Positions 1 through 39,539 of a stretch of DNA of 64,000 bases are shown here, one piece after another (the first letter of the stretch is position 1; the number at the start of each line of letters is the position of its first letter). The DNA comes from Paracyclopina nana (lineage: Eukaryota; Arthropoda; Copepoda; Cyclopoida; Cyclopettidae). The translations under genes were made by a program, and so were the position numbers. The stretch covers positions 4,422,001 through 4,486,000 of the forward strand of contig JAGUCH010000006.1 in the NCBI GenBank assembly GCA_019096065.1. The letters run 5' to 3'. The notes beneath the pieces are model-generated. The model did not search any database. It saw nothing but the letters and a program-made list of their open reading frames with translations, and was not told where the DNA came from.

Positions 1-1636
1 GCATATATCAATTTTTTTGTTCTCTGAAACTACTATGGAGCAAAGAAGCTGGAAAATGATGATGTCGCTTTAAAATGTGAAGTAACCATGATTTGATTTG
101 TGACTGATGTATTAAATAACCATGAAATTTATTCATTTTGAATCTATGAAATAACTTTTTTTCAAGTCATGAAACTACCATGCAAAATACAATAATTTTA
201 GTAGTTTTTCAGTTACTAAAAATGTTCAGAGATGGCGCTGTCATCTTAGCATTACATCTTTGATTGAAACATATTACACAAATCCATTCACATGTACTAT
301 TAATTGGAAAACTCAATTGAGAGTATCCTATGAAGCCAATTCCTCAACTGTTCTAATGCTATCAATTTATCTTTTATTACAAAAAAACAAGTAAACACAA
401 AAAATGTTCAATAGGCTTATTGGTTGCCAAAATTGATGTAAGCTCATTATTTGATTATTATTCTTAAATTAAACAGGCCAAGTTTAATCTGAACTATATC
501 ATAACATGTGATGTCATTGACATAGATATTTTGGATTAAGACTGAAGATGAGATCAGGTACATACATTTGTGCTGATAGGCCAATATTTATGAGGAATAT
601 CCCTTGACTCAATATTCAAGCTTGAGGTCACAATTCCAAATTTTGAAATGTGAAATGACTGTTGATCTTAATTCTTTAAGTTATGCTTGCATGGTTGTTT
701 AACACTTTGGTTACAATTTGTATCACATCTACATCACAGATCGGATCAGACAGAAATTTTTGGCCGGACTGTACCCTGAAATAACCATGAGAACAGATAA
801 ATAACAGTACCAATTTTAATAGTTGTTTAAGAGTACAGTAACATAACGTCTTAACAGTTGTTTACCCTTCTATGTCATAGAAGGCTTTTGAAATGTAAGC
901 GTCACATGAACCTAATGTAAACAGTAACATCACATTTTTGCTTTCGCGACCCTTCTGTTCTGTGACACAAATGTGACTGAACTTAACAATTCCGGTGGGG
1001 ATACCATTCTCTTATGACTCTAATGTCATAATTATTGCCGTTATTTTATAAGGTGAGTAGAGCCTTTTAAAAATTACTTCATTCATACAGGTCCCAAGGG
1101 AGGAAGGTTTTTTGGCTGATACTAATCTTACATTATGGTCAAGTAAACTCATGCATAGGAAATGCACGGAGACAGCACTAGACCATTTTCGTGTTGAAGG
1201 CCCATAAATCTGAGATTCTTGCACAAAAACTGCAACTCTTAGCATGCCTGTCCTTGCTTCTTTCCACGAGAAGAAAAAAAGATGAAAAAAGTGTGGTAAC
1301 ATCCAAGTCTGGATGCTCACCATCAGGCAAGAAGAATTGCCACGTTCGGCCTGTCACAGTTTGTCTAACATCGTGAATCGATTTGATTTTTTTGGTGCCT
1401 TTTGTCAGAGTACAACAAAACTAAGAAGTCTTGATGCGCAGCACAAAGTTGGCTGTTTTTGCAATTTTGCAGAAATAATGCGCTCATTTTAGCACAACAT
1501 TCGACCTTCAAACAAAGATCCTTTTCGTTAACAAAAGGCAGACTTTTGTACTCCAGGAGGAGATCAAGATAAAATGTAGTGCCTAGCCACACAAAAATGC
1601 TACATTTCTGTCAGCATGTGGATTGTACTGTTCAAG
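1..1636. other. Gene-free AT-rich DNA
   Basis: No convincing exon was found on either strand; open frames are short and resemble nothing known. The only motif noted is an AGATGGCGCTG word at 230-240, which resembles an invertebrate CTCF core. Confidence 0.5.
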
Positions 1637-2240
1637 TTCGAATCCGCAAAATATCGAAAGGTAAAAGTTCGAAAAGTGAAATTTCGATCCGCAAAACTTC
1701 GATAGGTAAAACTTCGAAGAGCAAAAAAATCTTGGAACTGATTTGTAAAATATTTTCAACACAATAAAAAAAATTAAGTTCATCTATACAGAGCCTCCTA
1801 CCAACAGTGGATTAAATAGTTTTAAATAATTAAAACTATTTAATAAACTTATAATAATTAAATAATTTTTCATAATTAGTTTTATGAGGTGTTCACCTAT
1901 GCCTCATTTCCTTAAAATATTACGGCATCCTTAAATGAAGTGCCTAACTTTTTGTACTTCTGATTAATCAAAACACTTCAAACTCATGTGACCAAAAGAG
2001 GTGGAAAAAGTAATTTACTTAAAGCTATCAAGAGTGAGTAAAAATGATCAGTACTAAAATAGGAGGCTTAAGTAAAACATAATTTTACGGAAGGAAAAAA
2101 TTTCCTTTATAGACACAGCATTAGTAGAAGTTGCAACAATGATCGAATTTTTGCGGATTGGAACTTTGCCTTTCGAACTTTAAACTTATCGAACTTATGC
2201 GGATTCGAACTTTAACCTGTCGAACTTTTGCGGATTCGAA
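1637..2240. mobile_element. MITE-like element with subterminal TTCGAA/GCGGAT repeats
   Basis: The left end begins TTCGAATCCGCAAAA and the right end is its reverse complement (TTTTGCGGATTCGAA). Inside each end, short units built from TTCGA, ATCCGCAAAA and AAAGTTCGAA recur several times, inward-facing on both sides. A 14-bp stem with a 4-nt loop lies at 1812-1843. No transposase ORF is present, so it is inferred to be non-autonomous. The exact ends and target duplication are uncertain. Confidence 0.6.
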
Positions 2241-5200
2241 GCTGAACAGATATACCAGCATGTGCTATATTTCCAGTTGTTCAAACTACACATGTAAGTC
2301 ATAATTTGTGCGTCCACGACAATTATGATTATTAAGCCTTTCTCAATCAATGCAAAATAGGCATACGATTTGATTGATTCGTATGAGAATGTTTCGTGAT
2401 TGGAGCCAGTTCGTTTTTGCCTGTGCACTTTTTTTCTCTGCTTCGCATGAATTATTTATCGTATCCGAAAATGTGGAAGGCTGCCGTAGTCGTAAGGAAG
2501 GGTTGTAGGTTGTTAAAAATTCAGCATTCTCATGAGACTTCATTTGATCAGTCAATCGCGAGCAAGGAGCTTCTTTCCACTCGTTCTATGAGTATGGCTG
2601 AAGTCGAGCTTGCGCTTTTCACAGTAATATGAAAGCACACACATACGCCATCTAGCGGCGCAACGCCAAAGTGCGCGCCAGCCATCACCACGCGCTCATT
2701 TCGCAGAATTCAGACTGGAAAAATACTGTATACATGACGATTCGTTTCGGATTTCTTTTGGTAAGGAAGACAAATGATTATCGTGACAGTGGCTGGAAAA
2801 AGAGCTTCAGACCTACAACATCTCGCACGCAGCACTGTGGCATTTACGGTCAAAATCACTGTATACATTTCTGCGGCAAACTTTCAAGCGTAGCATTGTA
2901 TACGCAAATAAAGCCCATGTTTTACATGTGTTTTTGCTGCTTTGGGGGCTTATCCCCCTCTGTGGCCCTTGATCAATTGACATTGAGCACAATTTTCCGC
3001 GCATCGAGTTCAACTACCTTGGTTGATTCGTAAAAGGGTTTTCATTGAGAGAGACCAACAATTTGCATGTCGTCTAGACACCAAACCACCACGAGTGAAC
3101 AGATGGACCAATGCATCCATTTTTGTTGAACTTTTGCACCTTGTCATCTATTAACTTTATACCATGGTATACCAAGCATTCCTAAGCCTGGCCGTGTGTA
3201 ATTTTTCTTCCAGAAATAATTGCCTTAATTTGCACTGAAGCCATAGTACAGCAAATAAACTTTTTCAGTCGTGAAGAGAGCAGATAAATTATTCTGCATT
3301 TTTTCTGGAAAAAACGCTTTTACGAAAAACTCGTTTGGCAACAACTGGGATCAGAATTAAAATTCTGCTGTAAATGGCATACTGATGAGGCATACTATGT
3401 TTCGTAAAGCAAACATTTCATTTATCGTTGCATGTAATCTGTAATATGCTAAAGTACTTCCAGAGCGAGGTAGAGGAATAGGTAATGCGTGAATTTTGAC
3501 GCGCGTATGAAAAAACTGAAGGCAATGCCCTCAAATTCGTGTTACTGAACAGGTAAGAAGAAGTCAGTTACCTCTCAGCAACAGCACTGTAGGCTGACGC
3601 CCACAAAAAAGGCCAAGATGACACAAAAAAGTGGCTGAAAACGGGTTTGGTACTGTACTTGCTTTGTTGTGTTGCCTGTTGAGCGCGCATTTAATGATGA
3701 ACTTTTTCTGGCGTTTTTTGTACTAATAATTCCAAGTCAAAAGCCCTAATCCCACTGTGGGGGACAAGCATGCACAGTATGCATGCAATGAAATATGCGA
3801 AAAGAGCCTGAACAACACGTTAAATCAGCTCATTATCTCTACGTTACGTAACGAAAGAATTGAGTTCACATTCTTTCAGTCTGTTGCATTCTCACAGTGC
3901 AATTGCCCACTAAATATGATTTTTGTTGGCACTTGGCCATCTAGGCCATCAAAAAGCAGCATAAATATATTCAGATTAAGCCGATAAACCTAATTTATTA
4001 TGGTCAACTTCAAGAAACGGCTAAATTATTTATATTGAGGATTGGACATTTATAATTCAAGATTGGCTCAAAATTATATGGCAGTCAATAGTAAAACACC
4101 TAATTTTTAAATCAGGCATGCGTATATTCTATAGTCGGTTATTTGAGGTAAAATGTAGCTTCCTTTTAAACTACGTAGCTGGCAGGGCAATCTTCCATTT
4201 ATGTTTAATGGCATTTGTACATAATTTACACAAATAGGATTTAGATTATGATGCATGTGGCTTTAAGTAAAAAACATTGAAACCTAAGTAACTTACGTCT
4301 CGTATAGCCAAAATTGCCATCATCGATCACTATTTCTCGTGATCCCTTATTCATTGGCTCTGTAATATTTTTTAAGGCTCGAATGGCTCAAATGTACAGT
4401 GACAATTATGCTAATTATGCCAGAAATGTCGGATGCATACCCTGCTAATTAACTTAATTGAACCTCGACACATTTTGATGCAATTAGAGAATTGCCGAAC
4501 CTAACTCATAAGAAAACTATTCTATATGCCTCATTGCAATGTACTATTTTATTTTGTACTTTATTCTGATCTTGTAAAGCTTCCTTATGCAGTTAAAAAG
4601 CCTCAGCTACTGAAGTAGGCACTTAAGGCTTTCTCTCTTAAGCTGCCCTTAACATGAAGTCAATCCCAATCGTCTCTAGGGAAGCTATGTGAAGAAAAGG
4701 AGAACTTTTGCAAGTGCATCAAGAAATTCTACAAAATCCTGCGTATGGCTGGAAAGCACAGAAAATCCCGATTATTTTCTAATTGAGGAAAAATGAATGA
4801 TTGATTGAAGTAACGGTCCCCATTTGGCTACTCCGATAATAATAATGAAAAAGAAGGTACGATGAAAATTCTACGTCATAAATGCGCAGTTGATGTGGCC
4901 TCTTCTTGTGTACGGAGTGGCCTCATTGACTTAGTCGTACCGGCCGGCCTCGCATATAGGCCTCACAATTCCCGGCAAGCTTTGCGCAAACACACTGGGC
5001 CGAGGCAATGGATGCTGCAACGAGAGCATGAATTACATAGAGGGAGAGAGAAATAACGGCAATTAAGGCGACAGACAGCCTTGATTAATTGAATATCCGG
5101 AATCGGTGGGAATTTGAATATTCACTGAGTTTCCGGATTTGCAGTCAAAGTTGTACTGCAAAATCCGTAATTGTATACAATCTCATATTAAAAGTATGAC

Positions 5201-25730: not shown

Positions 25731-25734
25731 ACAT
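25731..25734. repeat. Target-site duplication (ACAT), left copy
   Basis: ACAT directly abuts the left LTR and recurs immediately outside the right LTR. A 4-bp duplication fits BEL/Pao integration. Confidence 0.85.
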
Positions 25735-26290
25735 TGTCGTGGCCCGCAATCTCCTGGAAAGTTGCCCTCAAAAATGTTGGTGGGGATCGCTATGCGAACG
25801 GATTTTAGCAATGCTAAACAACCAAGGCTAGTCAAAGTCAAGACAAGAGGAATGGAAGCAAGCTAGTGGATGGATTGAGCAATGCTCTAATCCAAAACCA
25901 TGACAAGTATGACTTATCAAAGCTCAAGCAACAAGTGACATGTAAATCATAAGCATAGAATAAATAAGCAATAAATTCAACTAAAGCAATGCTTCAAGAT
26001 GAATCCAGAGAGAATACACAGGTTATAACTTAATAGAGATGAGATGCAAAGGTTAAAGATGATTGGTAGTATAGGCAAACACAAAATAAATCCAAAATGG
26101 CAGAATCAGATTGACAAAAACAGGACTTCTATATTCTTTGGGGTTTTTGAGCACAGTGACGAAAATGGCGGTACAATGGCGGATTCTCAATAACAGCACG
26201 GAGATGAGATCGGGCAAGCCAGCAGCGCAGCGTAGCGTGGTCAGGCAGCGAGCGTGCGTGCGCAATGCGCACACTGGGCGGAACAAAACA
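25735..26290 (-). repeat. 3' LTR of the BEL/Pao element
   Basis: 556 bp, starting TGTCGTGG and ending AAAACA in the written strand; matched base for base by eye to the other LTR. Contains five GC-N3-GC inverted repeats at 25787, 25804, 25877, 25984 and 26258. Also contains two ATGGCGG words (26165 and 26176 region) that resemble YY1 sites. Confidence 0.95.
25871..25894. repeat. Extended LTR hairpin around a GC-AAT-GC core
   Basis: TGGATTGAGC pairs with GCTC, one bulged T, then AATCCA, across an AAT loop: ten base pairs with one bulge. It is the longest stem in the LTR and recurs in the right LTR at 39116-39139. Confidence 0.75.
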
Positions 26291-26294
26291 GCTG

Positions 26295-26303
26295 TCCCCC
26301 CTT
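26295..26303 (-). other. Polypurine tract
   Basis: In element sense, AAGGGGGGA lies four bases before the 3' LTR. This is where the primer for plus-strand DNA synthesis is expected. It is short but correctly placed. Confidence 0.65.
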
Positions 26304-26334
26304 GGAGACCGTAGAGGCCGTGGCGAGGCTGGCC

Positions 26335-29300
26335 TTAAGGCCAACTCGTAGTAAAGGCCACGCATCGGTTCTCCAAGACATAAGTAGTGGTGTTGTTGTC
26401 CTGGATCATCCTGTTGAAAGGCACCAAAGCTAGGCGATCACCTTGCCTAGCCAGATGAAGGCCAATTCCCTCGTGGAGCCTGAACAAGTCCAGGTGCAAG
26501 ATGCTGCACAACGCTGTCTCTTCCAAGAGCTGCAAGTATGGCTTCTTGGTCTCTGATGGCTTGTGGTGGATGGCAAGATGGCCGAGCTCTGCGCACAAGG
26601 TGCACCTCTTCAGGAGGTCCTCGCATACAAACACAGTATGTGTGCGAGGTGAGCCGCATTGCGGATTGATGCAGAGCACGGGGCCTGCATTGCAGCCATC
26701 CTTCAAGTGATCAAAGGATCCACAACGCTTGCAATAGTGGGGCGCATTGCGTCCACCTTTAAAGATGACATCCATCACATCAGACCACGTCAGCTTGCCC
26801 GGAGCCTTCCTTACAATTGACATAAAGGCCAAGGCGAGCTCCTTTGAGACCAAATGCAGATCAATGGCATAAGACTTCCCCTTCTTGAAGTAAGTCCTGG
26901 TGGCAGTCACACTGTTGATGGCACTCGATTCGCACTCGAGCAGCCACATCCACTCGGCAAAGACGCCATCCTCGCAATGCGAGGATGCTGGGTTGGGCTC
27001 GACCTTGTTGAAGGGCCTCAAGTTGTCGTCAGTCTTCTTGAGTTGCCCAGGGGCCTTGAGGTTGCGGATGCGATCCATGGCAAAATGGGCATGGCGCAAT
27101 GCGTCAACTTTGTGCCCAAAATTGTGCCTGAGGAGGCCGCGAGCCGTGAGCGTGAAGATCGCTCCAAAGGTCAGGGCGTGGTTCATCCAGACAAACATTT
27201 GCTGCTTGGCAGTCCACGTCCCTGGCGGCTTGCTGAGGTCATCCTCTTCTCTGAGGTATTCGAACCTCTTTTGGCTCCCCTGCGGGTTGACATGAATGTC
27301 GCTTCGGCGCTTGGCGCTCCGCTGCACAGGCACACCTTCAGTTCCAAGCCTCTCCGCGAGATAAGTCACATTTGACTTCATCTCAGCTGCTTTGACACCA
27401 GCTTGCGGGAAGAGGATGAGGCTGATGGTGTTGATATCGCATTTTGCCCTGATGTCAAGTCCCAACATGGCGTATCGCTTCTCTTGATCCATATTGAAGC
27501 CAGCAACCCGCATTGCGGGGTGCTCCAGCAAGTCAATGATGTCCTTCGGAATCTTCGCCCCCTTGAACACTCCATTGCCTCCTTCGCCACCATAGTTGCT
27601 GTGGATGATGAGCAACGTGCTCCGGCTGCCCACAGCTAACACAGTGTAGCAACCGTCAGTGGGCTTGCCCTTGACTGCCATGCCAGCCTGAACTAGCGCA
27701 GGGAGAGTCCAGCTGTACATGTGGCTGGAGAGGATGCGGTAATGGTGGGCCTCCCTAAAATAGCCTAGCCTCTCCAGCTTGTCCTTCACAGCAGTCCACT
27801 GTTCATCACCCTCCAGCAAAACAACATTTCTTCTAGCCCCTTCCAATCTGCAATCCCATGGGCCCTCGCGCATCTTGATGTGCTTGAGCACATCCTCCAA
27901 GAAGTAGGCCGAGTAGCACAACTCACCATCTTTTCCGCGGAGCTGAGCATCCAGGGGAGCCTCCTCAAACCGTCTGAGGACGCACTCGATGAGGCTGCAG
28001 GGGGCTTCGTCCTCACCGTCGAGCAATGCTCTAACCCGTGGGCATGGAGGGGCCACATACTCATTGCTCACTGCAGGTGATGGGCGAACAGCAGGGGTGT
28101 GCGGGACTGACTCCCGCAATGCGGAAGCCAGCAGGTCAGGGTTGGCAAATGGGTCTGCCAGGGTGGAAATGGTGGCATCCAGGTTGAAGTGGTACCAATA
28201 TCGCTGTACCCATTCTGGAATCTTCTCGGCATCGGTGGGGAGGGGCAGAGCGAGGACTTGTTGGAGGCATTGATCTTCTCCCGGGGGCGTGGCACCAAAC
28301 ATGCCCAATGTGAGGGCCCTTGCAAAGGCCTTGCGTGCTTCCCATGCTTGGGAGGCGCGTTCCAGGTCACTTCCAGTGAGGGGGGCTCTTCTTAGAGGAT
28401 TGATCCTTGGGTTGGCAAAAATGCACTCCAGCTCATAGTCATCATACACCTGGATGAGGTTGGGGTGGCACGTTGACATGATGACAAGTGGACATTTTCC
28501 ACGGCTGAAAGCACCAATGCGTGTGCTATCCTGCTTGGAGGCCAAGGCTGCTGCAGCCGCTCGCTCAGCCTCAGAACGAGGCTCATCGGGGTCACGGGGT
28601 CCATAAGTGAGCGAGTTGCCCAAGAAAGCAATGCCAGGATCACAATAATGGCGGAGGAGGACGTCACCCTTCAAATTCGCGGCCTCGTCCTCAAACAAAA
28701 CCTCTCTGGCGTTGAGAGAGTCGCACAGGACTCGAATGTGGGGGGCGAGCAATGCTCGTCGCTCCACAAACTTGCATGGCAAGGTGAGCCCTGTAAGAAA
28801 GGACAACAAATTATTACTTGAGTTGTTGGACGGGTTGTCATCAATGCTGCCATAGCTGCCGCTCTGGAACGCAAACTCGAGAACAAACCGATCTTCCTCC
28901 TCAGTGACTGGATTCAGCTCCAGCCTTGGTGGAGTTGAGTTGGGCCTCCCTAACCTTGAGTGGATTGGCACACGGTTGCTGCTGCTGCGCGAGACTCTTG
29001 ATGAAGCATCTGCTCTCAATGGTCTTGAAATGCGCCCTGAAGATGCCCTTGAGCTTGAGCCAGAAGAGCGTGACGCATGGCGTCTGCGTGAGCTTTCTCG
29101 ATGATCAGAATTGGTGCGATCTCGACGGCGACTTCGATGATCATCATCCGGCGCAGTTATTCGAGTTCTTGTTCTTGACGGAGGTGGGGGTGGTGGCGGC
29201 CTCATGATGACACTATTGAGCTTACGAGGTGGTGATGGAGAGGATGAATCTCCTTCGCGATCATCAGTACCATCCATGGGTGAGTCTTTCGAACTTGTGG

Positions 29301-29844
29301 CCGGCGGTGGAACAGAGAGGTCTTTTATTGAGTTCAAATCCAGCATAGGAACGTCTTGCTTATTTCCGCGAGGTGGAGCTGATGACGATGAACGACTCGA
29401 GGGAGAAAACTCGGCCATCAGCTGCTCATACTCCTGTTCGTATTCTTGCTGATTCACAGAGATGTGATCTTCACCATCGACCGAGTCCAGAACACTATGG
29501 GAGACACTCTGGACGCTTGGCGGTCCCCCCGTTGGGGATGATAGAAGAAGGTGGTCATTGACATTTTGATCACACTCCATGGGTTCTTCGTCATTCTTGC
29601 TTTCAGCAGCAACGGCAGCACGAGTAGCAATGCTAAACTCATTATTACCTGTAGTAGCAATGCTACGAGATGTTGATGCGAGGTCCATGAGGCTATCGTA
29701 CTCCGACAGATTGATGACGACATTTTCTTTGGGCTGCTCGGGTGGAACCTCTGGTGGGGCATCTGTAGGTTGGAGTGGAGGCCGAGCTATAGCTTCGACC
29801 TCCTGCACTGTTTCGTCGAGGATATTTGTCACGATGTCACTCAT
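26335..29844 (-). CDS. Retrotransposon ORF2: zinc-knuckle protein with exonuclease-like region
   Basis: 1169 aa, starting at an ATG 361 nt after the gag-pol stop and ending 44 nt before the 3' LTR. Residues 1-200 are acidic and Ser/Pro-rich; a proline run near 218 precedes an Arg/Ser-rich stretch (about 235-300). Residues ~700-860 resemble a DEDD 3'-5' exonuclease pattern (strands, PKDIIDLLEHPAMRVAGFNMD near 770-786, then AKCDINT near 800), but the usual DxE motif is not seen, so it may be inactive. At C1038 a CX2CX4HX4C knuckle (CKRCGSFDHLKDGC) begins, followed by further Cys/His pairs to ~1091. No signal peptide or membrane segment is visible, so it is not an obvious envelope protein. It may bind element RNA; function is unknown. 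Confidence 0.85.
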   Translation of the reverse strand: MSDIVTNILDETVQEVEAIARPPLQPTDAPPEVPPEQPKENVVINLSEYDSLMDLASTSRSIATTGNNEFSIATRAAVAAESKNDEEPMECDQNVNDHLLLSSPTGGPPSVQSVSHSVLDSVDGEDHISVNQQEYEQEYEQLMAEFSPSSRSSSSAPPRGNKQDVPMLDLNSIKDLSVPPPATSSKDSPMDGTDDREGDSSSPSPPRKLNSVIMRPPPPPPPSRTRTRITAPDDDHRSRRRDRTNSDHRESSRRRHASRSSGSSSRASSGRISRPLRADASSRVSRSSSNRVPIHSRLGRPNSTPPRLELNPVTEEEDRFVLEFAFQSGSYGSIDDNPSNNSSNNLLSFLTGLTLPCKFVERRALLAPHIRVLCDSLNAREVLFEDEAANLKGDVLLRHYCDPGIAFLGNSLTYGPRDPDEPRSEAERAAAAALASKQDSTRIGAFSRGKCPLVIMSTCHPNLIQVYDDYELECIFANPRINPLRRAPLTGSDLERASQAWEARKAFARALTLGMFGATPPGEDQCLQQVLALPLPTDAEKIPEWVQRYWYHFNLDATISTLADPFANPDLLASALRESVPHTPAVRPSPAVSNEYVAPPCPRVRALLDGEDEAPCSLIECVLRRFEEAPLDAQLRGKDGELCYSAYFLEDVLKHIKMREGPWDCRLEGARRNVVLLEGDEQWTAVKDKLERLGYFREAHHYRILSSHMYSWTLPALVQAGMAVKGKPTDGCYTVLAVGSRSTLLIIHSNYGGEGGNGVFKGAKIPKDIIDLLEHPAMRVAGFNMDQEKRYAMLGLDIRAKCDINTISLILFPQAGVKAAEMKSNVTYLAERLGTEGVPVQRSAKRRSDIHVNPQGSQKRFEYLREEDDLSKPPGTWTAKQQMFVWMNHALTFGAIFTLTARGLLRHNFGHKVDALRHAHFAMDRIRNLKAPGQLKKTDDNLRPFNKVEPNPASSHCEDGVFAEWMWLLECESSAINSVTATRTYFKKGKSYAIDLHLVSKELALAFMSIVRKAPGKLTWSDVMDVIFKGGRNAPHYCKRCGSFDHLKDGCNAGPVLCINPQCGSPRTHTVFVCEDLLKRCTLCAELGHLAIHHKPSETKKPYLQLLEETALCSILHLDLFRLHEGIGLHLARQGDRLALVPFNRMIQDNNTTTYVLENRCVAFTTSWP
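26967..26987. repeat. Longest internal GC-N3-GC inverted repeat (9-bp stem)
   Basis: CATCCTCGC and GCGAGGATG flank an AAT loop inside the ORF2 coding sequence. It is a perfect stem and the longest uninterrupted member of the dispersed family. Confidence 0.85.
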
Positions 29845-30205
29845 TTTAACAATTTTCAGACACAGTTATTTTCACGGCTCCGGAATATCACGTCGGAGGA
29901 AAAGGAAACGATTCAGCTGACAAAACTAGTTGAGCTCATGGTAAAACTATGAGAAGGGCAGCTGTGCATTGCACTGCCGGGCCGACATGGCTAACCATGA
30001 CGCAGCATTGCTGCGCAAGATTTTTGTCATCTCACGCAACCTTCCTAGCACGGACTTTTTTGCGATTTTTACACGAGAGAGCAATGAGAGCAATGCTCCA
30101 ATAATAATACGAATCGTAAATGGAAACAGAAATAGAATGTTTTGAGCATGGCTCAATAAAATGCGCATTGCGCTGACTAGAAATTTTGTTGGCATAAGTG
30201 ATTAC
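29845..30205 (-). promoter_or_regulatory. Pol-ORF2 spacer packed with hairpins
   Basis: 361 nt containing stem-3-nt-loop repeats at 29964-29974, 30001-30015, 30088-30098, 30142-30156 and 30163-30173, with a related TCGCA-CAG-TGCGA at 30221-30233 just inside gag-pol. A possible splice acceptor (TTTTGTCAG in element sense) precedes ORF2. It may control subgenomic expression of ORF2; this is inference. Confidence 0.55.
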
Positions 30206-33200
30206 TCACAGATTTCCTTTTCGCACAGTGCGATTGGAGAGAATTGGTAGTCCAGACTCTTCTTCACTGGCATTCATCTTTCTGATGCAAAACAGACTAT
30301 TTTGATAACGATCCAAATTTTGGGAGTCCATTTCTCCAATGCGATCAAGGAAATCAAGGTTAGGAACAGCGGGATCTTCTCCTGGCTTGTTGTAGACAAC
30401 AAATTCATCAAAATCACGGAACACAGCCAGTGGGATCAGATATTGAGTTGATTTTTCATAATAAACAGGCTCATGTTCTCCAGGGGGTACCATCTTGACA
30501 ACTGCACGACGACATTCCCCATCTTGGTCACGAATAGCCTTGTGGATGATTCCAAGTGGCCAATAATACCTTTTGTGGAAGTGAGGCTTCTCCAGCACAG
30601 CCACAACATCGCCATGCGACAAGGTTTTCCGATGGTGCTGCCAAATGGGCATTTTCCTGATGTGTTCCACCAGCTCTTGTGACCAAAAATCCCATAAAGA
30701 CTGCAATGCAGTTTCGATGACTTTGTATCGTTGTTCCAGAGTTGCCAAGGTGGTTGGATCGATCACTGGAACTACGTCACCTGGAGGGCCACGAGTCAGA
30801 AAATGATTTGGCGTGAGAAAATGCCCTTCCACTTCGCCAATTGGCCTTCCATTGATGAAGCCTTCCGCCTTAATGACAGCATATCGAAAGTCTTCAATTT
30901 GCGTGGATTTTCTCCCAAATTCTCGATAAAGAGCTTTCTTGAATATCTTTATAGCTGCCTCTCCAAGTCCATTGAAGTTGGGTGAAAGCGGAGGAGAAAG
31001 CGTCCAATTGACCACTCCTGCTTGCCCAGCAAATTGCCGCAATGAGTCCCAGTCAACCACTTTGAGCTTTTCAATCATTTCTTGGTAGTTGGGGTTGACA
31101 CGAATATCTTCTCTGACTCCAAGAAAATTGCTGCCATTGTCACTACGTAGGGTGTGCGGGCAACCTCGACGAGCAATAAACATTTCCAGAGCTCGCATGA
31201 GCGAGGCTGAGGTCATATCGTAGAGCTCTTCACAATGAATGGCCTTAGAATGCATGCAGATGAAAACCACGACATACATCTTGTATTCAGAGCGATTGAA
31301 TTGAGTCATGAATGGCCCACACATGTCAAATGAGGTGTACCTAAATGGCAGAAATTCTGTCAGTGGCACAGCATGTGGAGGCAGCAGGCCCATGTGAGGT
31401 GGCAATGCCACGAGTCGGTGTCTTGCACACATCGCGCAATTGTTGAGGATGTCCGTCATGATCCTCTTTCCTCCTGGGATGCAATATTTCAGTTGAGCTT
31501 CACTCAGGTATCTGAGCCTTCCAAGTCCATGGCCAAGTTTCTTATGGTAGTCTTCCAGGATGAGTCTTCGCCCTTCTCCAGGAACAATCAATTGCCTTCG
31601 GCCTATCCACTGGACTGGTGAAGAATCGAGACGGCCTTTTGTTCTGAGCTCGCCATGCGAGTAAAGAACAGGATCAAGCTTGGCTAACCTGCTGCCTCTT
31701 GGCCAGATTTGGTACTTGAAGAAGTGGTCGAGCTCTTTGCCATAAGCCTCCTGCTGCAGCCAGACAGCAATGGTGCTTTCACAGAAAGAGAACTCCTCGG
31801 CACTGATCTCACCTTCAGGAGCTACATCTGAGCAATAATTGAAAGTGAAAGCCCAACGACGTGCATAGCACAAGGCGCGCACTGCGCGAATCCAAGAGTT
31901 GAGTTTTGAGAGGTCGACATGACATGGGTTAAAACGCATATAATGCCACATGGCTCTTGTTGCAGCAGAAGCTTTGAGGTGACTTGGAACGTGATAACCA
32001 CCCAATTTTTCAAATTGCGCGATCAAGACCGTTTTCTTTATTATTTTCTTGGTCTTCCTATCACCCTTGCCAGTGCGCTCGTACTTTTCCAGGGCCGCTC
32101 TTTCATCATCAGTGATGTTGGGGTCCCAGCGTGGAAACCTGGAATCTGGTCCTCTCAAGAACCTTGGTCCATGTATCCATAAGTCCGAGTCAGCAAGCTC
32201 AGCAATGCTGTAGCCTCGCGAAACTAAATCCGCAGGATTCTGCTTTCCTGGTACGTGATGCCAACGATGGTTGATGGTCTTCTCCACAATGGCAGTCACT
32301 CTTCTTCCAACCCACTTTTTCCAGTGACAAGCGGGTTTACTGATCCAAGTTAAGGTGCACTGCGAATCTGTCCACAAATGAACCTCATCCACCCTGGATA
32401 AGGCTCCAAGAATATCTTCGCACAATTCAGCACCAATAACACAGCCTTCGAGCTCCATTTCAGGCATTGAACGAGTTGCAGAAATGGTGGCCACTTTCAT
32501 TCGCGATGCGAGCAGAGTGCAGTCATAAGTGCCATCATCAAATTCTGCACGAATGTACGCACATGCGCCTTTTGCTAGCTCGCTAGCGTCAGAAAAGATG
32601 TGCAATGAGAGCTTCTTGGCAGGCCTAGAGCGCATGGCGCGAGGAATGCGAAAAACTTCAACTCTACTGACTTCATTAACATATTCAGCCCAATCTTTCA
32701 GGATTTTGTCCACCTCATGAGACTCAAGCATCTCCAAGGCTGTATCCCAGTCAATGTCATAAACAGTCTTGAGCACATTGACACGCTGAATAAGGAGGCG
32801 TCCGCGAACAATCAGTGGAGACAAAAGGCCAAGAGGATCAAATAGCCGTGGTACAAATTGACACATCAAAGGTAGAGTTACCGGCGCATTGCGCATAAAC
32901 TCAGTACAAGGAGGTTGAAACACAATTTGATCACCCTCACAGTCAATGTACATACCTAAGGCCTTGGTGATGTCAGCATTCTCAGAAGACACAATGAATC
33001 CTTTCAGTCTATGATCTTCCTCGATGTCCTCCAGAACTTGGTCAGCATTGCTGCCCCATTTTCTGAAAGGCATACCTCCTTTCTCTCCTAAGTCCAAAAT
33101 TTGTCTCACAGTTTCACGTCCTTCTTCAATATTTTCGACCGAAGCAAATACATCATCTACATAGAGTGCAGTATCGAGAACTTTGAACCCCAGTGGATGA

Positions 33201-36200
33201 CTTTCTTGATATTTGGAGATGTGGTGTTTGACTGCAAAACTTGCCATGCAAGGTGCACTTGTGGTGCCAAACACAACAGAGCTTGCTTCATAATGAACAC
33301 CATTCCAAACAAAGCGATGATATTTTCGTGAGTCAGGGTCGAGCTTGAATCGTAAGAACATCTTGCTGATGTCCGTGACAATGATAATAGGTTTTTCGCG
33401 GGCTCCAATCAGAATGTCAAACACGTCCTTCTGAAGCTTTGGTCCTGGTAACAGGGCGTCGTTGAGGCTTTTTCCATTATGTTGACGTGATCCATCGAAA
33501 ACTACCCTCACGGGCATTGAAGGCTTGTCCCGACGCTCAACAAGAAGCCAATCGAGGTAATAACCATCATTTATGTCATCTATTTCAGGATCAAGCTCGC
33601 GAATAAATCCAAGTTCCAGCCAGTCCTTGAGTTCTTGAGTGGCCTTTTCGTAGGTGGGAAGATCGAACAACTTCAGCCTTCTTTCCACGGCAGCAGTGGA
33701 CTTCATAACCGCAATGCGGTTGCAGCTGAAGCTTGGTTCATCAGGACGCCACATGGGACTCATTTGATACTCATGATTGTCGAGTTGAGTGATGGTTTTG
33801 GTGAGAATATCAAGGGCGCGCTTGTCATTGACACTAAGCATTGCTTGTGGTTGATGGGTGACAGGAAAATCAGACTCCCAGAGAGCTTTCAGCAGCTCTG
33901 AGGGCGGGGGAATATCTTTTCCGAAACAATTATCGCATGGCGGAGGATCGCTTGGTGGCAAATCCGGATTGGCATTGTTGTCGGGCAACCCCACCATACC
34001 CATCATAACCCCGAAATGAGAAGCACCTCTCACCTGATCAGGGGTGTAGTACGTGATCACCCTTCCCAATTGACAGTCGTAAACATAAGGCTCTCCATCT
34101 TGCTTGTGGACAATTCTCTCAGGCATGATGAGATTGTAGTAGTCAATACCAATCAGTAGCTCTGGGCAAGGAGGCGTGGCATACGTGGGCAGGCTTAGGT
34201 TCTTCAGGTACTCAAACTTCTTCTTCAGTCGGGACAGCGGTGGAACGGACACAGATGAAGGCATATTTTCGATGGTGTGCAAACCGAGCAGATGATCTTG
34301 GCCTCCTTCAGTGGGCTTTACCAGGATGGAGACTGCATTACTGACCACATTTACAGTGGTGGCGATCATCTTAAGAACTTGATCATCAGATACTCCTTCC
34401 AGTCCCAATCGCTTGGCGAGTGAGGCTGACACCAAGGAAAGCTGAGCACCAGTGTCAAGGAAGGCATTCACCTTGATGTATTTCCCTGGTGCTTTTGGAT
34501 TGGCAACAAGGACTGGTACCACACAAAAACTGAGTAGCTCTCGATTGGTGGTTGGCCTCGATGATGCGCCATGCGCACTGTCGGTACTGGTGCTGGCCAC
34601 ACTCTTCACATTTGATGGTGGTTCAGCTCCAAGGGAAGTTCCAGGTTTTGAGAGCTTGGCATGAAGAATGGCAGGATCACTTTCCACAATGCTCATATAA
34701 GGATAAGGTCCAAGCGGAAATGACAACTCTTTTTTCACAAGTTGACTTTCAATGGAGCTTCCAGGATCCTTGAAGTTGCGAGGTTCATCATCGCCTCCAT
34801 CATCATCAGAATCCAGAAGTTGGCTCTGACCATCTTCAGCATGGCTGAGTGGTAGAGAGGTGAAATGCAGGTTGGGAGTCAGAGGCTTCTTTTCTTCATT
34901 CAGCTCCTCCTTGAGTGGATCCATGTGATCACCTGGCATTTGATTCACCCTGGCTGCAAGATTCATTTGGCTAATAACCTGAGTGAGGGATGCCACAGCC
35001 TTTTCCAGATTGGCATTGCCAGAGGGAGCTGACACAGGATCACCGCGTGGCGGTGGCTGAGGTGCGGTCGCATCTGCCTTGAAGGGATCCTTTTGGCCTT
35101 CATCACTCTTGTCCTTGTGATCCCAGGCACCATGAAGTCTAGTATGATGGCTTTCCGATTGACATTTGTCACACTTCCAATTGCGGATGCACTCTTTGGT
35201 AGTGTGAACACCTGCCATGCAGCGTAAACATGCCTTGAATTTGAAACATTTTACTGCTTGACCGCGAGGAGACATTGCCAAGATGCTTGGACAATTATAG
35301 AACCGGTGCTCTGATGAGCCGCATTCAGGACATTTGGCAAAATATCGTTGATCAGTTTTGGTCACCGTGAGAACAATAAAGGAGTCGCCACCGCTTTGCG
35401 GTACGAGCATGTCCTCAACATCGTCACCTTCCTGGCAAGGTAACTGCTCCTCTGATTGCAGTTCTTGTCTCACATGAAAATTGTGCACCGGTTCAGATTG
35501 CAAATAAGATGGAAACGGAGATTGCGCTTCATATTGATTCACTGCGACCTTAGCACGCGGTCGCGTTGCGACTGCTCCAGGGTTTGCTATGGCATGCGAC
35601 CTCAGGATGCTCAGCCGTCTGTTGCACCACTGATCAAACAAGTTGCTAGTCATGTAGGTGGTGGTTCCATCTCCACGTGAGCTGAGATACCTGTCGAGAT
35701 CATCTCGCGTTGCGAGCGTCATAGGCAGAGTTCGAAATATGTAAGAGTCATGAAGATCCATAGGCACATTCAGTCCTGGATGACCCCAATTGCTGCGGAC
35801 ATGCCTGTAGATGTTGGATACCAAGATTTTGGCAGCCATGACGCTCGATGAGCTCTGGAAATCCAAGGGTGCCATATTGGTCATCTTCTGAATGAGGCAG
35901 TCCATCTGCAGCTTCGGGCAGCCATAGTCATTTTGGAGGACTTCCAAGCAGTAGAGGTAGCTCTCCTCAGTCTGAGGTTGGCTGGCTACAAAGTCTCCAG
36001 CTGGTCCTCCACGAGTCAAGTCCATCAGCCTGTTGAATTTCTCAGGCCAGGAGCTGGCCGGATTCTCGTGCACCAGAGCCTTGAACTGATCACGAAAGGT
36101 GACAAAACTGGAAATATCCTCACCCGTAAATCTTGCAAGATTGACTGCGGGTAGCTTTGCTCCAAAACGGGCAGCTAGGCTTGGGTGATTGTTGATCAAA

Positions 36201-38920
36201 TCTTGGTACAGGTGCGGTGCCATGTAAGTTCCAAAACCAGGAATTGTTGGTAGGTTGGGTGGAGGTCCCCCCATTGGAGGATGATTCAATGGCTGCCGAG
36301 CATAATTAGGCTGTGAACCTTGTTGAGGCTGACCTTGAAAATATGCGCCTTGCGCAGGAGGGGCTTGAAAGGGCACGCCTTGCGTGGGTGGAACTTGAGC
36401 ATAACCTTGATTGATTGGTTGGCTCCAACTCCATGAAGGCTGAGGTTGAGGCAGCTCTGGCGGGTTCCACATCGATGAAGGCTGAGCATTGCTCACCTGT
36501 GCACGGATTTGTCCACTGGTCTGAGGGAGATGCTGCATGGCAGCTAAGCCTGAGGCTGGTCCCCCATATTGAGGTTGGGCGAGGAACCGCTGAGGCTGCT
36601 GCATCATCGTGTGCACATCAGGCCTGACTGGTGGAGCAGGATGTCCAGCAAGGGAAGGCTGAACCTGATTGGAGATGATGGTTGCGCCATGCGCAGAGGT
36701 TGTGTGAGTGACGGCCGCAAGTCTTTGTGGTCGTGGTTGGCCCCAAGAATCCATCTGACTTGGCCTCGAATTTCCCATCCAGGGTGGTGGAGGCTGACTG
36801 TAAACAGGATTGATGGTTTGACTGACCTGAGGTGGCGCATGGCGCCTGTAAACATTTCCTTCAACTTGGCCTCTCGGTGGTGGTGGAGCACTGTAATTGT
36901 TGGCTGCCATGGGGTGAGAAGGCCTGGTAGAATTGGTGGCAGGACCTAGAGGTTGATGAGGTTCCATTCCTCTGATGTCATTTCTCGGTGGTGGCTGCAG
37001 AGTTCCATCCTCAATGGATCTCCTCTGACCTTCGCGCAAGTCACTGTAGATGCGCTGGCCATATATTGACAGTTGCTCATCGTGACGAGGTATTTCTCCT
37101 CCTGCCGAGATGTAAGCAGCCTTGGCCTCTTCATACTTGTTCAGAGCTCTGGTGAACTGATCCAAGGCAGAACTCCATTCAGCTCCAGACAGATCATCAT
37201 CTAGCTGCTCGCGGGCCTCAGTCTGAGCATGTCGGAAAAATGTTGCACAGCCACCATATTGAAGGGCCAAATCAATCAGCTGCTTGGTGTTCATGGTGGG
37301 TGCGCTGACAGCTGGGTTGCTCGAGGTGGAAGTTGCGATGCGGAGTTCGCGCTGCGACTGACCGTCAACATTGGTGTTGAGCGTGGGAGCGACGGGACGT
37401 TGCTCAGCTATCAAAGTGCCAGGCCTTACTTGCAGCTGTTGATTCAACCAATCAGCTATCTCACGCTGTGACACCTGCTCAGCAGTGAGATCATAAGTTG
37501 TCCCAGCAGCTGTCGCCACACGACAGCCTCCTGTGGCCTCATTGACCTCCACACGAGCTAAGCTGCCAACTTCATCGGTGCCAGAATTCAAGTTGCTCGG
37601 TTCCTGCCTTGCAGAGGTTGCAACAACTTGATCGCCATGCGATTCGCCGCTCTGCGGCCTTCGGAAAGGCCGATATTCTCCAGTTTCGGTGATCACTCTC
37701 AGAATCTCATCGGCAGCGTAAAGCAATGCTTGACACTGGCTGTAGATCTTGGCATACTCATCTTTGAGAGATTTTGACGGCTGAACTTGTGCTTGCTCAA
37801 CCGACGCATTGTACAAAGCAATCAGACGATCACACTCTCTTATGTAATACCTCAAGTGTTGACGAATTTCCGTGGCATCAGACTTTTTGATGGGAGTTTG
37901 GCCTCCTTGGAGGACTTCACGATACCTCCTGAGGAAGGGCTTGATCACTGCAAACAGCTGTTGCATTGACTCGGTGTGCTTCAGAGCATCATTTTCAGCC
38001 TCTTTCATTTTTTCCAATTGTCTCGGCGTCTTCTTCGCGGAGGTTGGCCTGGATTTTGTTCCAGTGGGGCGATATTCACCAGCGCTAGTATTTTCACCAG
38101 CAGTAGACTTCTTGCTGCTTCTTCCAGATCTTTTCTTCCTGCTGCCGTCGGGCATGGAAGCTCCACGAGAATGCATGGCAGAGGTAGTTGATGCCACAGA
38201 TCGATTGTCATCATCATGAGAAGCACGGGTAGAACCTTGATTAGGCCTGATAGTGGTGTCGTCTTCAACAGGCTCATGATCCGGTTGATTGGTTGCGACA
38301 TGCATTCCACTTGATGGCCCAGGAGTTGAATGCTGCAGTTGATGACCAGGTGGAAATGGTGTCATCATTCCAGCTCCACCGCTTGGCGGTGGATAAGGTG
38401 GCACCAATTGATGCGGAGGAGGTCCAGAAGGTCCACCTTGAGCCCCACCAGGCAAAGCCTGATTCACATTTTGGGGTGGGAGCATTGCTCCAGATCCTCC
38501 TTGACGATCAGGCATTGGAGTGTTCATGAGGAATGACTGATTGGTGGTGTCACCCCTGGTTGTAGTTGGCGTGCGTTGCATCATGCTGCTTGTGCTGAAA
38601 GACAAACGCCTGCGGATTTCAATGACAACCTCCTCACTCCTAGGAGTTGCGACAGGATCAGATAGGCTTCCAACAAGAGGTGTTTCTAAGACAGCAATGA
38701 CACCCTCATCGGCCTCAGGATTATCCTGTGTTCTCTGCAGCAATGCTGCTTGCTCATTAGCTTGTGAATTACGTTGACGTTGCTTCCTCAAGGCCTCGTG
38801 GTAAGGAGAAATCTCAAGATTGATGTCCCCTAGCTCCTCGGTGCTGAGGTAAGGTTTTTGGCCCTGATTCCTCTTGCTTTTCCGGGTCGGGTTTTTGGGT
38901 GACTTTCCCTTCTTCGGCAT
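30206..38920 (-). CDS. BEL/Pao Gag-Pol polyprotein (2904 aa, single frame)
   Basis: Starts MPKKGKSPKN at an ATG 59 nt after the 5' LTR. Residues ~1-900: basic N-terminus, then Pro/Gln-rich. ~918-1080: DUF1759-like Gag core (NLARFTGED). C1197 onward: three zinc knuckles (CPECGSSEHRFYNC, CLRCMAGVHTTKEC and a CX2CX4HX4H). Protease motif DTGA at 1489. RT with YVDD at 1920-1923. RNase H with D2111 in FSDAS, later TDSQ and NPADLVSRG. Integrase with an HHCC zinc region, D2532, D2594 and E2654. The C-terminus resembles DUF5641. All catalytic positions checked are present and there is no frameshift between gag and pol. Gag and Pol are presumably released by the element's own aspartic protease, which raises the question of how Gag is made in excess. 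Confidence 0.96.
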   Translation of the reverse strand: MPKKGKSPKNPTRKSKRNQGQKPYLSTEELGDINLEISPYHEALRKQRQRNSQANEQAALLQRTQDNPEADEGVIAVLETPLVGSLSDPVATPRSEEVVIEIRRRLSFSTSSMMQRTPTTTRGDTTNQSFLMNTPMPDRQGGSGAMLPPQNVNQALPGGAQGGPSGPPPHQLVPPYPPPSGGAGMMTPFPPGHQLQHSTPGPSSGMHVATNQPDHEPVEDDTTIRPNQGSTRASHDDDNRSVASTTSAMHSRGASMPDGSRKKRSGRSSKKSTAGENTSAGEYRPTGTKSRPTSAKKTPRQLEKMKEAENDALKHTESMQQLFAVIKPFLRRYREVLQGGQTPIKKSDATEIRQHLRYYIRECDRLIALYNASVEQAQVQPSKSLKDEYAKIYSQCQALLYAADEILRVITETGEYRPFRRPQSGESHGDQVVATSARQEPSNLNSGTDEVGSLARVEVNEATGGCRVATAAGTTYDLTAEQVSQREIADWLNQQLQVRPGTLIAEQRPVAPTLNTNVDGQSQRELRIATSTSSNPAVSAPTMNTKQLIDLALQYGGCATFFRHAQTEAREQLDDDLSGAEWSSALDQFTRALNKYEEAKAAYISAGGEIPRHDEQLSIYGQRIYSDLREGQRRSIEDGTLQPPPRNDIRGMEPHQPLGPATNSTRPSHPMAANNYSAPPPPRGQVEGNVYRRHAPPQVSQTINPVYSQPPPPWMGNSRPSQMDSWGQPRPQRLAAVTHTTSAHGATIISNQVQPSLAGHPAPPVRPDVHTMMQQPQRFLAQPQYGGPASGLAAMQHLPQTSGQIRAQVSNAQPSSMWNPPELPQPQPSWSWSQPINQGYAQVPPTQGVPFQAPPAQGAYFQGQPQQGSQPNYARQPLNHPPMGGPPPNLPTIPGFGTYMAPHLYQDLINNHPSLAARFGAKLPAVNLARFTGEDISSFVTFRDQFKALVHENPASSWPEKFNRLMDLTRGGPAGDFVASQPQTEESYLYCLEVLQNDYGCPKLQMDCLIQKMTNMAPLDFQSSSSVMAAKILVSNIYRHVRSNWGHPGLNVPMDLHDSYIFRTLPMTLATRDDLDRYLSSRGDGTTTYMTSNLFDQWCNRRLSILRSHAIANPGAVATRPRAKVAVNQYEAQSPFPSYLQSEPVHNFHVRQELQSEEQLPCQEGDDVEDMLVPQSGGDSFIVLTVTKTDQRYFAKCPECGSSEHRFYNCPSILAMSPRGQAVKCFKFKACLRCMAGVHTTKECIRNWKCDKCQSESHHTRLHGAWDHKDKSDEGQKDPFKADATAPQPPPRGDPVSAPSGNANLEKAVASLTQVISQMNLAARVNQMPGDHMDPLKEELNEEKKPLTPNLHFTSLPLSHAEDGQSQLLDSDDDGGDDEPRNFKDPGSSIESQLVKKELSFPLGPYPYMSIVESDPAILHAKLSKPGTSLGAEPPSNVKSVASTSTDSAHGASSRPTTNRELLSFCVVPVLVANPKAPGKYIKVNAFLDTGAQLSLVSASLAKRLGLEGVSDDQVLKMIATTVNVVSNAVSILVKPTEGGQDHLLGLHTIENMPSSVSVPPLSRLKKKFEYLKNLSLPTYATPPCPELLIGIDYYNLIMPERIVHKQDGEPYVYDCQLGRVITYYTPDQVRGASHFGVMMGMVGLPDNNANPDLPPSDPPPCDNCFGKDIPPPSELLKALWESDFPVTHQPQAMLSVNDKRALDILTKTITQLDNHEYQMSPMWRPDEPSFSCNRIAVMKSTAAVERRLKLFDLPTYEKATQELKDWLELGFIRELDPEIDDINDGYYLDWLLVERRDKPSMPVRVVFDGSRQHNGKSLNDALLPGPKLQKDVFDILIGAREKPIIIVTDISKMFLRFKLDPDSRKYHRFVWNGVHYEASSVVFGTTSAPCMASFAVKHHISKYQESHPLGFKVLDTALYVDDVFASVENIEEGRETVRQILDLGEKGGMPFRKWGSNADQVLEDIEEDHRLKGFIVSSENADITKALGMYIDCEGDQIVFQPPCTEFMRNAPVTLPLMCQFVPRLFDPLGLLSPLIVRGRLLIQRVNVLKTVYDIDWDTALEMLESHEVDKILKDWAEYVNEVSRVEVFRIPRAMRSRPAKKLSLHIFSDASELAKGACAYIRAEFDDGTYDCTLLASRMKVATISATRSMPEMELEGCVIGAELCEDILGALSRVDEVHLWTDSQCTLTWISKPACHWKKWVGRRVTAIVEKTINHRWHHVPGKQNPADLVSRGYSIAELADSDLWIHGPRFLRGPDSRFPRWDPNITDDERAALEKYERTGKGDRKTKKIIKKTVLIAQFEKLGGYHVPSHLKASAATRAMWHYMRFNPCHVDLSKLNSWIRAVRALCYARRWAFTFNYCSDVAPEGEISAEEFSFCESTIAVWLQQEAYGKELDHFFKYQIWPRGSRLAKLDPVLYSHGELRTKGRLDSSPVQWIGRRQLIVPGEGRRLILEDYHKKLGHGLGRLRYLSEAQLKYCIPGGKRIMTDILNNCAMCARHRLVALPPHMGLLPPHAVPLTEFLPFRYTSFDMCGPFMTQFNRSEYKMYVVVFICMHSKAIHCEELYDMTSASLMRALEMFIARRGCPHTLRSDNGSNFLGVREDIRVNPNYQEMIEKLKVVDWDSLRQFAGQAGVVNWTLSPPLSPNFNGLGEAAIKIFKKALYREFGRKSTQIEDFRYAVIKAEGFINGRPIGEVEGHFLTPNHFLTRGPPGDVVPVIDPTTLATLEQRYKVIETALQSLWDFWSQELVEHIRKMPIWQHHRKTLSHGDVVAVLEKPHFHKRYYWPLGIIHKAIRDQDGECRRAVVKMVPPGEHEPVYYEKSTQYLIPLAVFRDFDEFVVYNKPGEDPAVPNLDFLDRIGEMDSQNLDRYQNSLFCIRKMNASEEESGLPILSNRTVRKGNL
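38375..38393. repeat. GC-N3-GC inverted repeat with 8-bp stem in gag
   Basis: TCCACCGC-TTG-GCGGTGGA. A perfect stem with a TTG loop, so it shares geometry but not sequence with the AAT-loop copies. Confidence 0.85.
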
Positions 38921-38958
38921 GAGAAATTGGGTTCAATTAATCTAGGGTGGGGTTAACG

Positions 38959-38976
38959 GCCCCACGTTGGGCGCCA
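38959..38976 (-). other. Primer binding site for tRNA-Lys(CUU)
   Basis: In element sense TGGCGCCCAACGTGGGGC begins 3 nt after the 5' LTR. It equals the 18-nt site known in retroviruses that use tRNA-Lys1,2. It should prime minus-strand DNA synthesis. Confidence 0.93.
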
Positions 38977-38979
38977 AGT

Positions 38980-39535
38980 TGTCGTGGCCCGCAATCTCCT
39001 GGAAAGTTGCCCTCAAAAATGTTGGTGGGGATCGCTATGCGAACGGATTTTAGCAATGCTAAACAACCAAGGCTAGTCAAAGTCAAGACAAGAGGAATGG
39101 AAGCAAGCTAGTGGATGGATTGAGCAATGCTCTAATCCAAAACCATGACAAGTATGACTTATCAAAGCTCAAGCAACAAGTGACATGTAAATCATAAGCA
39201 TAGAATAAATAAGCAATAAATTCAACTAAAGCAATGCTTCAAGATGAATCCAGAGAGAATACACAGGTTATAACTTAATAGAGATGAGATGCAAAGGTTA
39301 AAGATGATTGGTAGTATAGGCAAACACAAAATAAATCCAAAATGGCAGAATCAGATTGACAAAAACAGGACTTCTATATTCTTTGGGGTTTTTGAGCACA
39401 GTGACGAAAATGGCGGTACAATGGCGGATTCTCAATAACAGCACGGAGATGAGATCGGGCAAGCCAGCAGCGCAGCGTAGCGTGGTCAGGCAGCGAGCGT
39501 GCGTGCGCAATGCGCACACTGGGCGGAACAAAACA
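38980..39535 (-). repeat. 5' LTR of the BEL/Pao element
   Basis: Same length and, as far as reading shows, the same sequence as the other LTR, implying insertion too recent for substitutions to build up. It should hold the promoter, directing transcription leftward into gag-pol. No convincing TATA box was seen. Confidence 0.95.
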
Positions 39536-39539
39536 ACAT
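39536..39539. repeat. Target-site duplication (ACAT), right copy
   Basis: Matches the four bases before the left LTR. Host DNA resumes here; a CTCF-like word (CTAGTGGCGCCCTCTG) lies 46 bp further on at 39585-39600. Confidence 0.85.

Follow-up and report, generated by a model that had tools for sequence, protein, structure and literature searches.

Why would one retrotransposon carry 69 hairpins of a single small design, dispersed over its coding and non-coding parts? The question is raised by 64,000 nucleotides of the copepod Paracyclopina nana (assembly GCA_019096065.1, contig JAGUCH010000006.1, positions 4,422,001 to 4,486,000, forward strand; hereafter the window), in which a BEL/Pao-type long terminal repeat (LTR) retrotransposon lies on the minus strand. 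A sequence-only reading of the element had described stems around a GC-N3-GC core, five in each LTR and about 50 internally, and had offered several possible roles, among them RNA packaging, a DNA binding site and a self-spreading micro-repeat. Our analysis confirms its observation, a GC-N3-GC hairpin with a stem of at least 4 bp being present at all 50 of the positions that it listed, and partly supports its interpretation: among the roles proposed, packaging or another RNA-level role appears to fit best. The features on which the argument rests are the following (window coordinates).

25735..39535, minus strand: BEL/Pao-type LTR retrotransposon, 13.8 kb, with an LTR pair, a 4-bp duplication, reverse transcriptase (RT), Peptidase_A17, integrase parts and DUF5641
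38980..39535, minus strand: 5' LTR, 556 bp, identical to the 3' LTR
25735..26290, minus strand: 3' LTR, 556 bp
30206..38920, minus strand: open reading frame 1 (ORF1), gag-pol, 2904 aa, with 40 hairpins within
26335..29844, minus strand: ORF2, orphan, 1169 aa, with 13 hairpins within
39034-39040, 39053-39059, 39124-39130, 39231-39237 and 39507-39513, minus strand: GC..GC cores of the 5' LTR hairpins
25789-25795, 25808-25814, 25879-25885, 25986-25992 and 26262-26268, minus strand: the same five cores in the 3' LTR
29964..30175, minus strand: densest hairpin stretch, with six hairpins, two of them overlapping, in the gap between ORF1 and ORF2

With a minimum stem of 4 bp, the element holds 69 GC-N3-GC hairpins, 10 in the LTRs (five in each, as had been described) and 59 internal. 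At loop length three, the core GC is far ahead of all others (69 hairpins vs. 14 for the runner-up core), and it is enriched with this loop only, the 12 other loop lengths from 0 to 12 giving 1–7 hairpins each. Moreover, two further Watson-Crick pairs flank 69 of the 126 GCNNNGC cores (55%), vs. 0–13% for the 15 other cores. The earlier claim that the outer stems differ in every copy does not hold: they recur, the 69 hairpins using 13 of the 16 possible two-pair stems and the top two being used 11 times each. Over 118 deduplicated cores, the probability of each next outer pair is 0.65, 0.83, 0.53 and then 0.24, which means that the above-chance part consists of the GC, the next two pairs and roughly half of the one after.

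First-order Markov sequences (n = 200) give 4.9 expected hairpins for the element (maximum 13), to which the earlier chance estimate of about 3 comes close. The excess also survives the codon-preserving shuffles that had been named as a refuting test: synonymous-codon shuffles (n = 500 each) yield a mean of 3.06 hairpins (maximum 8) in ORF1, where 40 are observed, and of 1.98 (maximum 6) in ORF2, where 13 are observed. The hairpins do fall in different codon phases, as claimed (17/11/12 in ORF1, 6/4/3 in ORF2). Flanking DNA, which had been suggested as a control together with other core dinucleotides and which includes host genes, shows no comparable excess, with 9 hairpins in 25.7 kb (expected 6.7) on one side and 12 in 24.5 kb (expected 7.6) on the other. 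Within the element, density peaks in the non-coding parts, with 6 hairpins in the gap of 361 nt and 5 in each LTR of 556 bp, compared with 40 in the 8.7 kb of ORF1 and 13 in the 3.5 kb of ORF2; this is expected if coding restricts where hairpins fit.

The same design recurs in related copies. Twenty sibling stretches of 10 kb were sampled from the same genome; all sibling comparisons thus come from one genome, and the copies are not independent. In an unbiased count over all cores and loops of 1–9, GC-N3-GC ranks first or second in 16 of the 20 siblings, and these hold 22–48 hairpins per 10 kb, vs. 3–8 in the remaining four (L023 and L025-L027). Out of 21 copies, the ten with long open ORF1 frames were tested; in seven of them the hairpin count (40, 40, 38, 33, 24, 16 and 22) beats all 200 synonymous shuffles (means 2.3–3.5), while the other three, all from the hairpin-poor subclade, have 5, 5 and 2 hairpins and do not beat every shuffle. 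In further samples of 3 kb, the BEL/Pao copy L046 has 11 hairpins and the distant BEL/Pao copy L045 has 0, and two Gypsy samples have 1 and 0.

The four hairpin-poor BEL/Pao copies, which share 78–81% DNA identity, show no hairpin excess and provide a natural control. L025-L027 form one supported group in an RT tree that leaves the deep forks open and that draws on the 21 of 25 rows in which a usable piece was present (it was missing from L020, L023, L047 and L048); L023 joins them by DNA identity only (79–81%). Three of the four keep an open ORF1 frame of 3039–3052 aa in the fetched stretch. No substitute hairpin class clearly stands out in them over loops of 1–16 (best z-score over all classes 4.1), and no remnants of lost hairpins were seen.

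Hairpins are often kept at the same site between copies. In seven copy pairs with 58–83% identity over aligned columns, same-site hairpins are found in 38/41, 21/36, 8/26, 19/22, 18/23, 10/18 and 8/14 of the alignable cases. At hairpins, 270 of 342 outer pairs have not changed, vs. 3407 of 6222 in controls, and in close copies the core bases are kept at 0.88 vs. 0.75–0.76 in controls. The covariation anticipated for related copies is present, and it is modest in number: 171 site comparisons include 13 two-sided outer-pair changes that keep Watson-Crick pairing vs. 49 one-sided ones, the controls having 135 vs. 2432 (odds ratio 4.8, p = 2.5e-5, the comparisons sharing copies and hence not being independent). 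When the 29 of the 40 ORF1 sites with at least three copies (up to eight) were shuffled, 11 two-sided changes were observed, whereas 500 shuffles averaged 5.0 and never exceeded 10, relatedness not being controlled. The best-kept sites, and one that illustrates the exchange of stems, are listed below.

32632..32638, minus strand: core; the hairpin is kept in all seven aligned relatives
32202..32208, minus strand: core; the hairpin is kept in all seven aligned relatives
30703..30709, minus strand: core; the hairpin is kept in all seven aligned relatives
33838..33844, minus strand: core; the hairpin is kept in four of seven relatives, with three different paired stems among the copies (AA..TT here, GA..TC and TTA..TAA)

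Crossing the 40 ORF1 sites with seven relatives gives 280 cells, of which 132 were not alignable and were dropped. Of the other 148, the hairpin is retained in 65, and 146 show no gap at the site; hence, hairpins arise by substitution, not by insertion, which contradicts the self-spreading micro-repeat of the sequence-only reading. Two clades of siblings, clade 1 and clade 2, have almost no sites in common (1/10, 0/3, 1/8, 1/10 and 0/4), so that gain and loss of hairpins cannot be polarised. Both clades nevertheless share one cap; what persists is the design, and its positions change. In the LTR of one sibling (L036), only two blocks align with the window LTR; its four hairpins lie in these blocks and at the far end.

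Loops are lineage-specific and, in the relatives, unequal between strands. On the sense strand of clade 2, CAG occurs 33 times vs. 3 for CTG, CAT 12 vs. 0 for ATG and CAA 10 vs. 0 for TTG (p = 1e-5, 7e-5 and 0.019 against the trinucleotide background, values that are optimistic because copies share sites); cores without stems are biased too, in small numbers (CAG 10 vs. 2, CAT 6 vs. 0, CAA 3 vs. 2). Clade 1 with the window element has ATT 93 vs. AAT 56 (p = 0.0013, optimistic again owing to shared sites), CAT 23 vs. 12 and CAA 7 vs. 0, while AAG (9 vs. 5) and AAC (4 vs. 2) do not differ from background. The third loop position is mostly G or A in clade 2 and mostly U in clade 1 and the window element. 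A reading from double-stranded DNA predicts that a loop and its reverse complement are equally frequent; their inequality in the relatives points to a signal on one strand. It is thus probable that one strand acts, and RNA is likelier in this role than single-stranded DNA. The loops of L021, L022, L024, L028 and L046 are chiefly CAG, CAA and CAU. Kissing between complementary AAU and AUU loops was considered and rejected, as it fails for clade 2, where CAG far exceeds CTG.

What, then, could the hairpins do? The account that we favour, to which we give a little less than an even chance, is that they are dispersed RNA signals and that an RNA-binding protein specific to the element, Gag being the likeliest candidate, reads them in packaging or self-recognition. 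The transcript would carry about 60 cis-acting stem-loops with two to three variable pairs, G-C and C-G on top and a three-base loop, and selection would keep and re-create the set as a whole, more than its single sites. Whatever the stem sequence, the reader protein would recognise the three-base loop with its cap; its likeliest identity would be the zinc-knuckle Gag that the element itself encodes, or else the ORF2 protein, which has a similar array. By coating and selecting the long RNA, this protein may bring about packaging into particles, and loops peculiar to a lineage may allow it to single out its own RNA. A multivalent, shape-reading RNA-binding protein would be expected to select hairpins with this combination of features: stems that can be exchanged, a cap that is fixed and a loop that varies by lineage. 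The two candidate readers are placed as follows.

35132..35332, minus strand: three zinc-knuckle motifs (CCHC, CCHC, CCHH) in the Gag part of ORF1, found by motif scan; candidate RNA-binding part
26563-26733, minus strand: zinc-knuckle-like array at the C-terminus of ORF2, resembling that of Gag

This account has parallels in RNA viruses. The dispersed packaging signals of human parechovirus 1, MS2 and the hepatitis B pregenome are likewise tens of scattered short stem-loops with variable stems and a shared loop motif, conserved across relatives (PMC5431903, PMC6281560, PMC7612645), and are thought to act via a multivalent RNA-binding protein (PMC6281560, PMC5431903). The hairpins described here share such traits: many stem-loops with a common motif along the element, variable stems kept in close relatives, and distant relatives with the same design and few sites in common. 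For parechovirus, 45 sequences have 76–96 GxU stem-loops for 60 contacts, and such sites are reported to escape a plain scan for a recurring motif (PMC5431903); here, in an LTR retrotransposon, the fixed two-pair cap and the exact loop length can instead be seen in the bare sequence. Closer to our element, the LTR retrotransposons Ty1 and Ty3 also depend, for packaging and for transposition, on cis-acting sequences in their RNA. These are located at the ends of the RNA, as much as 5 kb of the Ty1 interior being deletable and Ty3 nucleotides 429-4979 being dispensable (PMC4974528), whereas the candidate signals here fill the interior.

A bolder version, which we consider possible and rather doubtful, is that each lineage writes a self-identity hairpin code with its own loop alphabet (AUU/AAU, CAU/AUG or CAG/CAA) and its own reader, so that only its own RNA would be packaged, with sites turning over, density being held and one subclade lacking the code. 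Among the matches listed from the open-licence literature, there is no report of such hairpins in an LTR retrotransposon, nor of a dispersed, evolving code made of them.

Several results weigh against RNA signals read by Gag. The Watson-Crick fraction at aligned sites is barely above that of shuffles (0.557 vs. 0.542, standard deviation 0.009), and at greater distance the hairpin core bases are kept no better than background (0.42–0.74 vs. 0.59–0.71). The Gag knuckles of the hairpin-poor subclade are almost like those of the hairpin-rich relatives, so that Gag knuckles alone do not predict hairpins. In the window element taken alone, the loop strand bias is weak (ATT 17 vs. AAT 12, CAT 7 vs. 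ATG 7, CAA 4 vs. 0, AAG 3 vs. 0). As for the pairing type, one-sided changes at aligned sites give G-U 10 times and A-C 11 times, wobble pairs thus not being better kept; the count of near-hairpins does lean to G-U (58 vs. 45 for A-C, expected 20 vs. 25), but the hairpin-poor subclade leans likewise (11 vs. 9, expected 6.0 vs. 7.4). Finally, the predicted mean closing-pair probability is 0.48–0.66 for the sense RNA, 0.38–0.58 for the antisense and 0.53–0.72 for the strand as complementary DNA (cDNA).

The strongest competitor, which we nonetheless regard as unlikely, is that a host RNA-binding protein docks on the hairpins, recognising the shape of a three-base loop in the manner of the TRIM-NHL protein LIN41, with a role in export, stability, translation or localisation instead of packaging. 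The stem-loops bound by LIN41/TRIM71, an NHL-domain reader, have exactly three loop bases and stems that may change, broken stems losing binding and compensated stems regaining it (PMC5908797), an architecture that the element's hairpins share. For LIN41, a U-A closing pair is preferred and C-G much weaker, loop position III is a purine and the sites lie in host untranslated regions (PMC5908797); the hairpins here close with C-G (cores ending in T are not enriched), have mostly U at position III in clade 1 and mostly a purine in clade 2, and number about 60 along one element. Moreover, loops differ among element lineages within one genome, and neither the flanks nor the two 3-kb Gypsy samples show an excess, so that an element-specific reader fits better than a single host reader.

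That the hairpins work in the form of single-stranded DNA, within minus-strand cDNA at the stage of reverse transcription or import, seems improbable to us, although this strand would account for the strand bias equally well, its closing-pair probability exceeds that of the sense RNA in five of seven copies, and G-U pairs are not clearly favoured. We know of no need for some 60 dispersed cDNA hairpins, which we count against such a role; so does the lean of the near-hairpins to sense-strand G-U, with the caveat that the hairpin-poor subclade leans likewise.

A protein coded by the element might instead read sites in double-stranded DNA, for instance as an anti-silencing factor with lineage-specific dispersed motifs; this we hold to be highly improbable. 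The motifs are indeed lineage-specific within one genome, GCA-W-TGC and GCC-W-GGC are odd DNA palindromes, and the two loop orientations are nearly balanced in the window element. The orientation is biased in the relatives, however, which makes a symmetric double-stranded site unlikely, with the qualification that the bias is weak in the window element taken alone, and the stems vary yet stay paired, as a direct DNA reader would not need. The VANC anti-silencing motifs of VANDAL DNA transposons are dispersed and lineage-specific; they are double-stranded DNA motifs of a DNA transposon with no covarying stem, unlike the hairpins here.

We give still less credence to a mutational process or a tiny mobile repeat that makes palindromes: the hairpins are dispersed, many and at different sites in distant relatives, which speaks for it, but alignable cells almost never show a gap (with 132 of 280 dropped as not alignable), a single core and a single loop length stand out, and the core is conserved above background in close copies. 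Chance, base composition or coding constraint can be practically dismissed, being contradicted by the synonymous and Markov controls, with nothing found in favour.

Packaging signals read by an element-specific protein would matter because how a retroelement Gag chooses its own RNA has yet to be explained, and packaging signals of the dispersed kind are not easily recognised in sequence. In this case, the ORF1 signal is about 13-fold above its codon-preserving control and has a sharp consensus, natural lineage variants with different loops and a related subclade without it; with these properties, short RNAs and purified fragments of the proteins would allow a direct test of the idea. If the self-identity version were true, it would amount to a dispersed, evolving recognition code in LTR retrotransposons.

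Regarding the identity of the element, its paired LTRs and flanking duplication, its domain set and its nearest relatives all fit, and on these grounds it is a BEL/Pao LTR retrotransposon. ORF1 matches Peptidase_A17 (E-value 9e-34), RT (3.8e-8), DUF5641 (6.8e-10) and the integrase zinc-binding domain above the Pfam cut-off, the integrase core scoring 32.5 bits, just below its cut-off of 32.6, and aspartyl protease matches likewise remaining below theirs. For a 1000-aa piece of ORF1, 7994 candidates were scored and 84 relatives found, the best at 35% identity and most with the A17 domain; those with a name are mostly from insects, along with other arthropods, nematodes (Trichinella, Panagrellus) and one cnidarian. 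No relatives were found in viral contigs. Within the same genome, matches were scored for 150 of 243 A17 candidates and for 150 of 429 candidates with a Gypsy-type RNase H.

ORF2 occupies the position of env, and its N-terminal part is rich in Arg and Ser. Siblings encode it with 48–75% identity over long matches and 32–42% in the N-terminal part, while no relatives outside the genome were found in Pfam, NCBIfam, PDB or protein databases at the thresholds used. An exonuclease-like domain suspected by eye was supported by no search, and a single-sequence fold of residues 600-1100 was uninformative (mean predicted local distance difference test score, pLDDT, of 32).

A few minor observations complete the picture. 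An Rfam search of the window gave 0 matches at the gathering score, and regular spacing of the hairpins was rejected, gaps being near-random (coefficient of variation 0.74–0.90 in six copies). The siblings L021 and L022 also have 13 CC-N3-GG hairpins where about 3 are expected, and the right flank (39540-64000) has 21 GC-N4-GC hairpins where about 8 are expected, scattered and with no evident common loop. At the ends of the element, the target site and a stretch resembling a primer-binding site, directly after the 5' LTR, can be recognised:

25731..25734, second copy at 39536-39539: target-site duplication ACAT, read from the sequence
38940-38980, minus strand: primer-binding-site-like stretch

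The identity of the two LTRs (25735-26290 vs. 38980-39535) implies that the insertion is recent on the mutational time scale.

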